This document shows, one piece after another, positions 26,807-34,195 of a stretch of DNA of 64,000 nucleotides (its first letter is position 1; each line of letters opens with the position of its first letter). Origin of the DNA: Thermodesulfobacteriota bacterium. GTDB lineage: Bacteria; Desulfobacterota; DSM-4660; Desulfatiglandales; Desulfatiglandaceae. Made by a program: the position numbers and the translations under genes. The DNA lies in contig JANQDY010000085.1 of the NCBI GenBank assembly GCA_028278625.1, forward strand, positions 40,273 to 104,272. Direction: 5' to 3'. The notes beneath the pieces are model-generated. The model searched no databases. It saw only the letters and a list, made by a program, of their open reading frames with translations, and had not been told where the DNA came from.

Positions 26807-27355
26807 TTAGCCGGGATTGGGATTTTTGCTGGGATGAAGCTTTACGAACATATCGAACGCAAACCACAAAAACAACCATCCCGGAACCGCCTCGATCATC
26901 CAACCTCTTTTACTGATGGACCAGAGTCCGGCACCCGCAAAGAGGAGCGGCATAAGGATTTTGAGATCCACGGGAATACCGGTGGTGCCGTATATCCGTC
27001 GGTTTAGATCGTTAAGGGCGCCCAGAAACCCGGCAGATGCAAAACCGCCCTTGCCTCCCTCTGAATCGGTAAGATCCGCTTCCTCTCCCAGGGACTGAAA
27101 CACCACATCAAAGTCTTCCAGAAGTTTCATGACACTCTGTTTGGTGTGACGCTCATGATCGTATCTGACCGTGATGCTCCCGGTGGCATGGTTCAGTCTG
27201 ACATCGTGGATTCCTTCGTGAGCATCAATGCTTTTTTTAACTTCTTTCATGAGGGCGGGACTTCGTTTCTTTTTATGGACTTTGACGCGAATTCTTCCGG
27301 GCACGGCACTGACCACCCGGGCGTGGCCGCCGATGGCGTTCTGCCTTTTTGTCAT
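26807..27355 (-). CDS. HMA-like domain membrane protein (PGRIRVK motif)
   Basis: This 182-residue protein starts at ATG 27355, behind GGAGGCTTAAAAGA. It has a heavy-metal-associated-like domain that lacks the CxxC metal site. The domain opens with VPGRIRVKV (18-26) and continues through the strand pattern IHDVRLNHATGSITVRYD. A central linker leads to two membrane segments (about 133-150 and 155-172). A longer in-frame reading would add 64 residues without a ribosome-binding site and is rejected. The HMA-like fold, basic GRIRVK motif and membrane tail recur in the proteins at 28507 and 33329. It is divergent from a ParA gene. Confidence 0.75.
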   Translation of the reverse strand: MTKRQNAIGGHARVVSAVPGRIRVKVHKKKRSPALMKEVKKSIDAHEGIHDVRLNHATGSITVRYDHERHTKQSVMKLLEDFDVVFQSLGEEADLTDSEGGKGGFASAGFLGALNDLNRRIYGTTGIPVDLKILMPLLFAGAGLWSISKRGWMIEAVPGWLFLWFAFDMFVKLHPSKNPNPG

Positions 27356-27527
27356 TTCTTTTAAGCCTCCTTCCATGCTGCCATGTGGTCCCTCCCAATG
27401 AAAATAACAGAAGTTTGGTCGAAATTCATTCAAAACTTTTGAGTCGATCGCCAGATAGAATATCTCTTGACCATTTTTTCCCAATAAAATAACATTTGCG
27501 GCATAAAAAAGGTTCCTTGAGGACGTC

Positions 27528-28142
27528 ATGATCATCAGCTTGGTCAATCAAAAGGGGGGTGTCGGCAAGACGACCATCGCCATTAACCTGGCCAGCGCCC
27601 TTTCTGAAAACGGGCACCCGGTTGTTCTGGTGGATGCGGACCCGCAAGGGAGTGTTCTTCAATGGCAGTCCATTTTGAATGATCATCTTTTTGAAGTAAA
27701 ACATGCTCCATCCGCCGCCTTAATCGGCAACAGAAAATCGCTGGTCAAAAGGAGGGGGCATGTGATCATCGACGCACCACCAGCCATTGGTGATATCACC
27801 CGGGCCATCCTCGCCGTATCGGACCTGGCCATTGTTCCCATTGCACCAAGCCCGCTGGATATCTGGTCCAGCAAAGAGACCATTTCTCTTTTCTCTCAAG
27901 CCGGAAAGCGAAACCGCCGCATGAAAACAAAGCTGTTGATCTGCAGAAAGATCGTTGGAACCCGCGTCGGAAAGGAGGCAAGAGAGGCACTTGAGACCTA
28001 CGGTATCGATCTGTTTCAGTCCGAAATTTCTCAGCGGGTCGCTTTTGTGGAAGCCATGATCTCCGGCCGATCGGTCCTGACATATGCACCCCAAAGCGCG
28101 GCCGCCAACGAGATAAGACGCTTGAGCGAAGAAATCATCTGA
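27528..28142 (+). CDS. Orphan ParA/MinD-family ATPase
   Basis: This 204-residue deviant Walker ATPase has the signature KGGVGKTT (9-16), [12 protein letters not shown] and VIIDAPPA. The small size and lack of an N-terminal helix-turn-helix match small cargo-positioning or segregation ParA proteins. No ParB gene is adjacent. The next two genes encode small hydrophobic proteins, one with an HMA-like domain. An interaction with the nucleoid to place a membrane or granule cargo is therefore conceivable, though not shown. A fair sigma-70-like TTGACC lies about 70 bp upstream. Confidence 0.85.
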
Positions 28143-28159
28143 TGGGAGGAGAGACGAAA

Positions 28160-28342
28160 ATGACCCAAAAAAGAGCTTTGATGGATGTGGCCAAAGATCC
28201 CCTGGCAAAGAAAAAGGCCATCGTTCAGGAAGAACCTGGAACGCGTCACGGTATCGGACATTACGCGCTCACCATCACCCTCGGTCTCTTGGCTGGTGTC
28301 ATCGGTGGCCTTCTATCAAGTCGCGTTCTAAAGATCATTTGA
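28160..28342 (+). CDS. Small single-span membrane protein
   Basis: This protein has 60 residues. It starts at ATG 28160 after GGGAGGAGAGACG, 17 nt downstream of the ParA stop. The N-terminal half is charged (KDPLAKKKAIVQEE) and the C-terminal half is one membrane segment, YALTITLGLLAGVIGGLLSS. No family is recognised. Its spacing and strand make it part of the ParA unit, and it may tether or be positioned by that ATPase. Confidence 0.65.
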   Translation: MTQKRALMDVAKDPLAKKKAIVQEEPGTRHGIGHYALTITLGLLAGVIGGLLSSRVLKII

Positions 28343-28428
28343 GATATCCACCAAAAAATTCCCTTTAAAACCGCATACCTGATGCAGCCCTTTGGTTATC
28401 CGGACGATCACTTAAAAAAAACGGTAGT

Positions 28429-28461
28429 TTAATGTTCCGCTAATAATTGCCTAACAAACCA
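28429..28461 (+). promoter_or_regulatory. Pho-type box upstream of the small HMA-like protein
   Basis: TTAAT at 28429, CTAAT at 28440 and CTAAC at 28451 are spaced 11 bp apart and end 45 nt before the GTG start at 28507. Confidence 0.6.
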
Positions 28462-28506
28462 GTCTTAGAATTTGTGGCATGTGATCAATACATGGAGGTT
28501 CAAGCC

Positions 28507-28878
28507 GTGAGATATTACATGCACAGCGTTCCGGGACGGTTGCGGATTAAAATTCCCGAGATAAAAGGACATACGGAAAAAGCGAGAAGCATTCAACTCA
28601 TCTTAAAGGAAATTGAAGGTGTCGAGAGCATTCGTGCCAACACCATCACCGGCAGCATCGTCATAAAATACGATGGGGATCGATTGCCCAGTGAGCGGAT
28701 ATTGACCATTTTAACCGAGCAGGGCCATTTTGATGAAGCCCAAACCTTCAGCATGGACCATGCCCTTTTTGAATCTGGCTCAAAGGCCGGACAGGCCCTC
28801 AGCAAGGCCTTTTGCGGCTGGGCCGTGGGAAGGGCCCTGGAAGGAACCAGTCTTTCATTTCTGGCTGCATTTATCTGA
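28507..28878 (+). CDS. HMA-like domain protein with VPGRLRIK motif
   Basis: This 123-residue protein starts at GTG 28507, eight bases after GGAGG. It begins RYYMHSVPGRLRIKIPE and has an HMA-like beta-alpha pattern ending in GSIVIKYDG, again without a CxxC. The C-terminal part, SKAFCGWAVGRALEGTSLSF, is short and hydrophobic and may be a membrane-associated helix. Its motif matches those at 27355 and, less well, 33811. The Pho-type box at 28429-28461 suggests induction under phosphate limitation. No metal ligand is visible, so a structural or membrane-binding role is more likely than metal carriage. Confidence 0.75.
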   Translation: MRYYMHSVPGRLRIKIPEIKGHTEKARSIQLILKEIEGVESIRANTITGSIVIKYDGDRLPSERILTILTEQGHFDEAQTFSMDHALFESGSKAGQALSKAFCGWAVGRALEGTSLSFLAAFI

Positions 28879-33149: not shown

Positions 33150-33262
33150 GATGTTCTTTCAATCGGCAACGGAAAAGCCGAAAATATTATCGCCCTCGCA
33201 TTACAGGTTCCTCTATTACAGCCGCGGTTTGCCCAAAACAGCAACGCCCGCGCCGGAAAACG

Positions 33263-33302
33263 AAAAGGCCCTTCGGATCGGTTGAAATTCGAAAGGCCTT
33301 TT
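33263..33302. terminator. Bidirectional-looking terminator hairpin
   Basis: A 13-bp stem with one mismatch pairs 33263-33275 with 33290-33302 around a 14-nt loop, flanked by A- and T-rich ends. It lies between the gene at 33329 and the ATPase gene, so it may reduce read-through from the DUF5132 unit into the pump gene. Confidence 0.6.
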
Positions 33303-33328
33303 CCCAATAAGCCGTTTTGATTCGCAGC

Positions 33329-33811
33329 TTATTCCGTTTTGTCGGCAAGGGATTTGGTAAAAATACCTAAGGCATACCAAAAAGCGACATACCATGGGGG
33401 CGCCACGAAATTTCCTCTCGCAAGCTGTGCAACCCCCCACCCGATGAGGCCCAGAAAAACCGCTCCCGCCAGATCCAGCTCGCCACCGGAAAAACGATCA
33501 ATGGAACGTCCCAGATTGCGCACCGGCGCAACGATCTTTGCCGACAATGGCTTAACCCTTGGCGGGGAGCCCTCCAGCTTGAAAAGGGCGTGCTTCTCCC
33601 CCAGCGAGATGATTTCCTGAAAATCCGGGAGGGCCCCCGTGATCAAAACACTCGCCGTATTGGGGTTAACTTTCACGGCTTCCAAAATCCCGTCTTTCAA
33701 AAGACGCTCTTTGACCCTTTTAAAGTAGGCGTCATTACCCTTTTCAGAGGGGATTTTGATTCTGATCCGATCAGCGGTCCGGTGCCCCACATGGGCCTCA
33801 GGCAATGTCAT
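33329..33811 (-). CDS. HMA-like domain protein with C-terminal membrane segment
   Basis: This 160-residue protein starts MTLPEAHVGHRTADRIRIKIPSEK, a variant of the GRxRIK motif (here DRIRIK) seen in two other genes of this region. The domain continues VKVNPNTASVLITG, again with no CxxC. After a linker (near residue 100) comes a hydrophobic stretch (LDLAGAVFLGLIGWGVAQLA and a second run with WYVAFWYALGIF). It lies 11 nt downstream of the DUF5132 gene and is probably co-translated with it. Function is unknown; anchoring to, or shaping of, a membrane is an inference. Confidence 0.72.
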   Translation of the reverse strand: MTLPEAHVGHRTADRIRIKIPSEKGNDAYFKRVKERLLKDGILEAVKVNPNTASVLITGALPDFQEIISLGEKHALFKLEGSPPRVKPLSAKIVAPVRNLGRSIDRFSGGELDLAGAVFLGLIGWGVAQLARGNFVAPPWYVAFWYALGIFTKSLADKTE

Positions 33812-33822
33812 GGAAGATGACT

Positions 33823-34104
33823 CTATTTGGAAGACGCTTTCTTGGGTGCGGCAACGGCTTTTGAGCCGGCCTTGAGTTCCGCCTTTGCCTCTTCCGTCAA
33901 ATCTTCAACCGTCTCTTTGGCTTCCTCGGCAAAGAGTTTCCCCTTTTCATAAAGAACCATGCCGCCCTTGATGCCGGCTTTTGTCAGAGACTTTAACACA
34001 CCTCCCACAACCGGTAAAACAACCGGTGCCAGAATTACACTTGCCGCGCCAATGGCCAGCCCGCTTCCCCAGGTCAGACTTTTGGGTAACGTTAATAGAG
34101 CCAT
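33823..34104 (-). CDS. DUF5132-like small membrane protein
   Basis: This 93-residue protein has a hydrophobic, Gly/Pro-containing first half (LAIGAASVILAPVVLPVVGG) and a charged helical second half rich in Glu, Lys and Ala (EEAKETVEDLTEEAKAELK). The pattern matches DUF5132 as I remember it. AAAGGAGGTTTCGA precedes the ATG. It is the first gene of a unit that runs into the HMA-like protein. A four-unit Pho-type box lies 48 nt upstream. Its function is unknown. Confidence 0.75.
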   Translation of the reverse strand: MALLTLPKSLTWGSGLAIGAASVILAPVVLPVVGGVLKSLTKAGIKGGMVLYEKGKLFAEEAKETVEDLTEEAKAELKAGSKAVAAPKKASSK

Positions 34105-34151
34105 TCGAAACCTCCTTTCAAAAACACCTTAATGATTAATATTTTTCCCTC

Positions 34152-34195
34152 ACAAATGTTAGAATACGGTTAGATTTATGTGAGCGGAAAGTTAA
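34152..34195 (-). promoter_or_regulatory. Four-unit Pho-type box upstream of the DUF5132 gene
   Basis: On the plus strand GTTAG starts at 34158 and 34169, GTGAG at 34180 and GTTAA at 34191, each 11 bp apart. On the minus strand this is TTAAC, CTCAC, CTAAC, CTAAC. It is the longest array of half sites in the window. Confidence 0.7.

Follow-up and report, generated by a model that had tools for sequence, protein, structure and literature searches.

The ATPase of ferrosomes, FezB, is a P1B-6 ATPase, and the ferrosome ATPase carries a GRxR N-terminal domain. The HN motif is a feature of P1B6 ATPases (PMC9374683), and the fez genes of C. difficile are repressed by Fur (PMC12574912). Another closely comparable system is that of the PacL proteins, whose GxxG helix and Glu/Ala repeats serve to gather P-type ATPases and keep them stable; the PacL relative DUF6110 is found with P1B6 ATPases (PMC9374683, PMC13043812; all of these sources in excerpt). 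Here we describe a gene block at positions 26807-34104 of a 64,000-nt stretch from a Thermodesulfobacteriota bacterium (contig JANQDY010000085.1; the whole stretch is referred to as the window). The block suggests an undescribed cation-handling membrane assembly with parts related to bacterial iron-storage organelles. We put at about an even chance that it is a PhoB-controlled module in which a PacL-like membrane platform would be built around a P2A Ca2+-type (Ca2+ or Mn2+) ATPase. The minus strand reads DUF5132, HMAc, the P2 ATPase and MetK2, the MetK2 gene overlapping the end of the ATPase gene by 11 bases; the plus strand carries ParA, P60 and HMAb, and HMAa is divergent from ParA. A first-pass annotation had listed three small HMA-like proteins, a P2 ATPase with a related start, DUF5132 and ParA, and Pfam and NCBIfam recover all of them in place; MetK2 and P60, which it did not list, bring the block to eight genes. 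Compared to that annotation, the Pho link and the conservation now stand more firmly, whereas the case for ParA and the comparison with ferrosomes have lost strength; MetK2 is the most surprising part of the finding.

The P2A ATPase and its partner proteins

The 1019-residue ATPase (30090-33149, minus strand) is assigned to class P2A by NCBIfam and Pfam. Among solved proteins human SPCA1 scores first (479 bits), followed by Listeria LMCA1 and SERCA. DKTGT is present in 32/32 family members (31/31 fetched sequences and that of the window), and the Ca2+-site residues are largely kept among these 32: E of transmembrane helix 4 (TM4) in 29, N and E of TM5 in 30 each, and N and D of TM6 in 31 and 29. 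The catalytic core and the Ca2+-site residues of TM4-6 are the likeness to SPCA/PMR1, LMCA1 and SERCA, while the module pump adds an N-terminal HMA_2-like domain and remains under the TIGR01522 equivalog cut-off (592.2 vs 798.3 bits). Judged by its conserved residues, the ATPase is an intact Ca2+-type pump, for Ca2+ or Mn2+. Two points weigh against this assignment of the ion, namely that the specificity is read from motifs and that TM8 holds a conserved Gln in 31/32. The start of the protein had been described as a GRGRYN domain related to the small HMA-like proteins, and this holds: the motif is AGRGRYN, and PF19991 matches residues 5-68 (3.0e-6) at 27.7 bits, just below the 30-bit cut-off. 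GRxR occurs in the N-terminal domain of 32/32 P2 ATPases and CxxC in the start of none (0/32).

The block encodes three small proteins with an HMA_2 domain (PF19991). HMAa (26807-27355, minus strand, 182 residues, 4.7e-16), whose start is placed by a GGAGG 5' of the ATG, continues into a hydrophobic C-terminal part. HMAb (28507-28878, plus strand, 123 residues, 1.7e-14) starts at a GTG with GGAGG, and in HMAc (33329-33811, minus strand, 160 residues, 3.0e-9) the domain is followed by a helix and a two-helix hydrophobic hairpin. The basic (V)PGRxRIK-type motif attributed to all three is found in HMAa (VPGRIRVK) and HMAb (VPGRLRIK), but the third protein reads ADRIRIK, with D and not G. The CxxC metal motif is absent from the stand-alone HMA_2 proteins of the family (0/62); with this count and that for the ATPase starts, the metal chaperoning usual for HMA proteins is rejected for the HMA_2 proteins. 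The HMA_2 domains may rather be connectors that bind protein or anionic lipid via GRxR. The predicted model of HMAc (predicted local distance difference test score, pLDDT, 79; predicted template modelling score, pTM, 0.47) gave nothing below E 0.001 in a fold search. HMA domains (CCS, MerP, Atx1 and OsHIPP43) are scattered in its first 50 rows at E 0.08-0.40, and initiation-factor, ribosome-recycling and polymerase folds rank above them, so that the search supports an HMA-like fold only weakly.

The DUF5132 protein (33823-34104, minus strand, 93 residues; PF17195, 4.0e-8) combines a hydrophobic glycine-rich stretch with a Glu/Ala-rich helix. In the family alignment the hydrophobic part is rich in glycine and an EDLTxEAK stretch is mostly conserved, the predicted model is one helix at residues 12-80 (pLDDT 69, pTM 0.27), and the library matches are PF17195 and a weak ComA match below the cut-off only. 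The PacL/Ctp effluxosomes (DUF1490; relative DUF6110) are likewise characterised by a small protein that has both a hydrophobic glycine-rich helix and a Glu/Ala helix and whose gene accompanies that of a P-type ATPase, and this layout beside a P-type ATPase is found in the DUF5132 alignment, in the model and at 26/30 P2 loci. In the mechanism that we propose, DUF5132 would cluster the pump and stabilise it in the way that PacL acts on CtpC. The module differs from PacL/Ctp effluxosomes in that DUF5132 is another Pfam family (no DUF1490 or DUF6110 domain), the partner is P2A and not P1B, and extra HMA_2 proteins are present. A PacL-like role is weakened by the comparison of DUF5132 with six DUF6110 proteins (hhalign), which gives a global value of 53% and a local one of 78% over 19 columns only. 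With so weak a match, a common origin of DUF5132 and DUF6110 is no more than conceivable.

The HMA_2-like GRxR start of the ATPase and the separate HMA_2 proteins are also what the block has in common with fez operons, here the fez-like loci L070-L073 and L041 of the phylum, and a true ferrosome (fez) locus was considered on this ground. The HN motif is present in the ATPases of these loci and also in L075; a GRxR start is seen by eye in 5/5 of the fez-like ATPases, and PF19991 falls on two of them under the cut-off (25.7 and 26.6 bits). Among 45 genomes with HMA_2 that were tested, 7 contain DUF6110 (above the cut-off in 3), in each case at most 3 kb from an HMA_2 match; the neighbouring ATPase was read for G099, G191, G159, G407 and G424, and 5/5 have both the HN motif and the GRxR start. 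The ferrosome-type link first suggested for the block therefore stands at the domain level, where the phylum's HN-motif P1B ATPases with DUF6110 neighbours start with the GRxR domain, and fails at the pump, which is Ca2+-type (P2A) and not of the ferrosome P1B-6 type with the HN motif. Ferrosome membership is ruled out by this ATPase class. The module also has DUF5132 and not DUF6110, which was found in 0/31 module genomes (30 DUF5132-positive genomes and G004) among the 45 tested, it adds MetK2, and its promoter is Pho-type where the C. difficile fez genes are Fur-repressed. A fez locus is accordingly extremely improbable. As far as gene neighbourhoods go, the pairing of DUF5132 with P2A parallels that of DUF6110 with P1B. 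In some clusters (L033, L036, L059 and L061 among those checked) there is a second ATPase, a CPC-type P1B with a GRxR start. A P1B-like ATPase frame of 730 residues without DKTGT was also noted at L056:1333-3525.

Conservation and Pho-type control

The HMA_2 domain occurs in 10/99 relatives and in 67/395 genomes of the phylum, with at least two copies in 49 of the 67. DUF5132 is present in 30/395 genomes, and 30/30 are among the 67 HMA_2-positive ones (hypergeometric 1e-26; the co-occurrence p-values given here take no account of kinship). In all, 47 stretches were fetched and 46 scanned, each at most 20 kb, which gave 30 loci in 28 genomes with a P2 ATPase of the module kind, the window not counted. 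Within 9 kb of these 30 ATPases lie a stand-alone HMA_2 gene at 27, DUF5132 at 26 and MetK at 23, so that the co-occurrence of HMA-like, DUF5132 and P2-ATPase genes on which the first proposal depended is confirmed. A protein of about 230 residues is encoded within 9 kb at 15/30 loci; at three more, the opposite strand of apparently the same gene was picked. MetK2 is found in 27/395 genomes, separated from the next match by a bit-score gap from 450 to 345, and 26 of the 27 are DUF5132-positive. The exception is G206, whose MetK2 copy is cut at the contig start, and four DUF5132 genomes are without MetK2.

One relative, L001, was obtained from a genome-contig scan, and its ATPase is 85% identical in the best segment. 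Both L001 and L033 have the eight genes in the order of the window, P60 included. Because this order repeats in the two loci, the gene block is more than chance; the flank of L001 beside DUF5132 differs, without pstS there, and the block is therefore a unit. Outside the phylum, Microvirga sp. VF16 (Alphaproteobacteria) carries the pump together with two genes for DUF5132 and two HMA_2 matches that are weak (below the Pfam cut-off), all near phnG and phnH, and no MetK was found in this 27-kb stretch. Plasmid searches with the DUF5132 protein of the window and with the roughly 230-residue protein gave no match. The Microvirga DUF5132 found one further record, from Sinorhizobium chiapasense (L106:11875-12342), with no pump or HMA_2 gene in the 24-kb stretch around it, and MetK2 found 168 records, with one at 60-80% identity among the 15 matches listed. 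In the open-licence literature searched, DUF5132 is unmentioned, the PF19991/HMA2 domain appears, by title, with plant immune receptors only, and papers on P-type ATPase, phosphate starvation, metK, calcium and Desulf- contain, by title and abstract start, no account of this module.

The window is a Pho island, with PhoU, PstB, PstS, PstA and PstC at 5260-10890, PiT at 14746-15996, PhoH-PIN at 25489-26790 and, in addition, a second PstS, an acyltransferase/GNAT protein and a glycosyltransferase (PstB, PstA and PstC were called by eye; NCBIfam gave the second PstS and Pfam the others). YTWACA-N5-YTWACA sites scoring at least 11/12 number 12 in the window and 0-4 in six Markov controls. The promoter of DUF5132-HMAc-ATPase-MetK2 contains four PhoB-type half-sites in 11-bp steps (34157-34195, minus strand), which at 21/24 form the top four-repeat array of the window and are equalled in 0/1000 shuffles. 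The array is kept in L001 and L033 (20/24 each; 0/1000 shuffles as good in each case), and when step sizes of 8-15 bp were tried, the score peaked at 11 in all three sequences. A Pho-type box also precedes HMAb (28440-28456, plus strand, 11/12), as it does in L033 (11) and more weakly in L001 (10); no box of the YTWACA-N5-YTWACA type lies between HMAa and ParA. The box and the array bear out the early observation of Pho-type boxes on at least two units, and with the 12 sites of the window they make PhoB-type control in the window's clade, as judged from promoter sequences, well supported.

Beyond the close clade, several results weigh against such control. Few promoters there have the box (DUF5132 3/23, HMA 4/30, controls 2/113), its enrichment before leading module genes is weak (7/53, the two of L033 included, vs 2/113 controls, p 0.005), and 17/30 P2 loci are without a Pho gene in the stretch read. 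Applied to Pho-type genes outside the clade, the same test found the box before 0/6 glycosyltransferase, 0/2 acyltransferase and 1/2 PstS-type genes, and because most Pho-type genes are missed too, the test is insensitive there. Pho-type neighbours are present at 13/30 P2 loci compared to 1/14 HMA_2 stretches without P2 (p 0.016); 8 of these 13 loci qualify by Pst/PhoU/PhoH genes and 5 only by lipid-gene homologues.

Phosphate starvation, efflux and a possible compartment

Some deltaproteobacteria appear, from these promoters and neighbourhoods, to switch the module on at phosphate exhaustion. Phosphate-limited D. alaskensis G20 is without polyphosphate granules, has swapped more than 90% of its phospholipids and contains bright inclusions and small dark granules (PMC5193443, in excerpt), and this starvation state is, by analogy, the setting that such a module would serve. 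The phosphate-starvation genes of D. alaskensis G20 resemble the neighbourhood of the block in Pst, in the acyltransferase/GNAT protein of OlsF-type layout and in the glycosyltransferase, whereas a pump module goes unmentioned in the available part of that report (PMC5193443). In the proposed mechanism, cells starved of phosphate would use up their polyphosphate and exchange their phospholipids, and the pump would clear the divalent cations so freed from the cytosol, sending them either through the plasma membrane or to a compartment.

Plain Ca2+ efflux at the plasma membrane of phosphate-starved cells, in which the accessory proteins would do no more than stabilise the pump, would agree with the Ca2+-type residues, with SPCA1 and LMCA1 as the top solved matches and with the Pho-type promoter. 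It leaves the three HMA_2 proteins, MetK2 and the repeat protein of the relatives unexplained, and we consider it unlikely. This amphipathic repeat protein is the roughly 230-residue protein mentioned above, which in relatives sits between HMAc and the ATPase. Over 16 sequences it has a periodicity of 11/22 residues (lag-22 autocorrelation 0.54, z 28), and its helical moment is highest at 98.2 degrees (11/3). An angle of 98.2 degrees is that of 11-residue lipid-surface-binding helices, as in synuclein and perilipin. A weak Senescence-domain match (0.0048, under the cut-off) was obtained for 1/3 repeat proteins scanned. Of the module genomes 22/32 encode the protein, always within about 3 kb of DUF5132, compared to 0/8 HMA_2 genomes without the module. 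The search did not find it in the other 10/32 (G019, G141, G156, G206, G378, G389, G403, G443 and, from the window's clade, G001 and G004), and it is therefore not essential.

The repeat protein bears on a ferrosome-like organelle for Ca2+ and phosphate, in which the pump would load a vesicle coated by the repeat and HMA_2 hairpin proteins and cation-phosphate would be stored. Its likeness to lipid-surface-binding 11-mers would fit such a coat, as would the GRxR domain that fez-like clusters of the phylum have in common with the module and, by analogy, the inclusions and granules of phosphate-limited D. alaskensis G20. The genomes without the protein, those of the window's clade among them, count against the organelle, and the starved G20 cells without polyphosphate granules are a poor fit with storage (PMC5193443, in excerpt). 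The organelle is conceivable but improbable to us, and a closed compartment of whatever kind is likewise possible but rather unlikely. The membrane compartment or storage system initially proposed is so far unsupported, though made plausible by the repeat protein of 22 module genomes, which is not found in the window's clade. We prefer the PacL-like platform. If true, it would link phosphate starvation to the field of P-type-ATPase membrane platforms or organelles, and two uncharacterised families, DUF5132 and stand-alone HMA_2, would gain their first role. If the compartment does exist, it would be a bacterial organelle class under phosphate control.

MetK2, ParA and neighbouring genes

MetK2 (28910-30100, minus strand, 396 residues) is a methionine-adenosyltransferase (MAT) paralogue with changed methionine ligands. 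Among 28 genomes searched, 25 have a MetK copy 57-91% identical to that of the window, other copies being 42-47% identical; G156, G378 and G389 have only 42-47%-identical copies. In a tree, the 24 module sequences separate cleanly from 17 housekeeping MetK sequences with 100/100 support, and on this phylogeny the module MetK is a separate paralogue, distinct from the housekeeping enzyme. In E. coli MetK, E55 and D238 bind the methionine amino group, and Q98 and K269 bind its carboxylate (PMC3853416, PMC1282579; both in excerpt). In the 24 MetK2 sequences E55 gives way to R in 21, Q in 2 and H in 1, D238 is H and K269 is R in 24/24, the Q98 column holds Q in 3/24 and another residue in 21/24, and the QSPDI loop that surrounds this position is gone in 24/24. 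All four ligands are kept in 17/17 housekeeping copies. What MetK2 retains of bacterial MetK, from which its changed ligands and separate clade set it apart, is the protein family, the catalytic His and the triphosphate residues, with H14, D16, K17, E42, R244, K245 and K265 kept in 24/24 and D271 in 23/24.

From this pattern ATP is probably still a substrate of MetK2 whereas methionine is not, and the base would be held somewhat differently. Two acidic ligands have become mostly basic, from which we infer an anionic partner, and MetK2 would use ATP with this partner in place of methionine. Against a changed substrate, the K269 to R replacement keeps the charge. K165 and the ribose residue D163 are kept in 21/24 each and the adenine-stacking F230 in only 11/24, so that the way in which MetK2 binds ATP may have changed as well. 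In archaeal MATs other residues bind the carboxylate of methionine (PMC3853416, in excerpt), and the lost bacterial set is therefore no proof of a changed substrate. MetK2 could also be an ordinary second S-adenosylmethionine synthetase, acting for example in methylation during the making of phosphate-free lipids. The TIGR01034 model of NCBIfam indeed names it metK (378.6 bits vs the 309.4 cut-off), and the conservative K269 change and the three retained Q98 residues agree with this. The replacement of E55, D238 and K269 in every MetK2 and of Q98 in most, set against the intact ligands of all housekeeping copies, makes such a role quite unlikely. A gene named metK by a standard annotation model is thus probably a different enzyme, with a pocket change that is conserved in a near-universal enzyme.

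A wider reading would have bacteria of at least one phylum make a Ca2+-type counterpart of the ferrosome when starved of phosphate, as a membrane assembly or compartment that unites the P2A pump, HMA_2 connectors bearing GRxR, a clustering protein akin to PacL and, in the majority of genomes, a lipid-coating repeat protein. MetK2 would then be a new enzyme that attacks or makes the 5'-triphosphate bond of ATP; its anionic partner, taking the place of methionine, could be phosphate or polyphosphate, and the reaction would connect AMP, ATP and tripolyphosphate. We regard this combination as unlikely. Two CYTH genes of the triphosphate-tunnel type lie beside the Microvirga pump module (L098:8728-10339); these genes there and MetK2 elsewhere hint at tripolyphosphate chemistry. 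For the module MetK of G145 (L063:4556-5749; G145:C21:78555-79748), the search match contains one TAG, yet frame calling gives an open 397-residue frame.

The ParA-type ATPase (27528-28142, plus strand, 204 residues; NF041546, 2.5e-62) had been counted as a part of the system. Among the 46 scanned stretches it was found, besides the window, only in L001 and L033; ParA is clade-specific in these stretches, and a general role is not supported. P60 (28160-28342, plus strand, 60 residues) has a basic N-terminus and one glycine-rich hydrophobic helix. It belongs to no Pfam or NCBIfam family, and its homologues, 25 database proteins including itself, share the invariant DxAxDPxAxK and GxGHYxLT. P60 may be a partner of ParA, and the two resemble a positioning pair added in one clade, where they may position the assembly in the cell.

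Several neighbouring genes were also noted. A likely operon at 34406-36043, after a Pho box at 34328 (12/12), encodes a 105-residue family-less protein, an ArsC-like low-molecular-weight phosphatase (below the NCBIfam arsC cut-off) and the second PstS; an ArsC-like gene is near the pump in 4/30 P2 loci. The acyltransferase and GNAT protein of OlsF-type layout and the glycosyltransferase at 36265-41175, with a Pho box at 38691, are likely phosphate-free lipid genes. In G063 (L039:5408-8552), genes that by eye resemble exopolyphosphatase and polyphosphate kinase are found close to an HMA_2 relative that stands alone. A small protein that by eye resembles a double zinc ribbon is encoded at most 9 kb from the pump in 9/30 P2 loci, for example at L040:10486-10830, L044:3764-4060 and L057:6697-6981.

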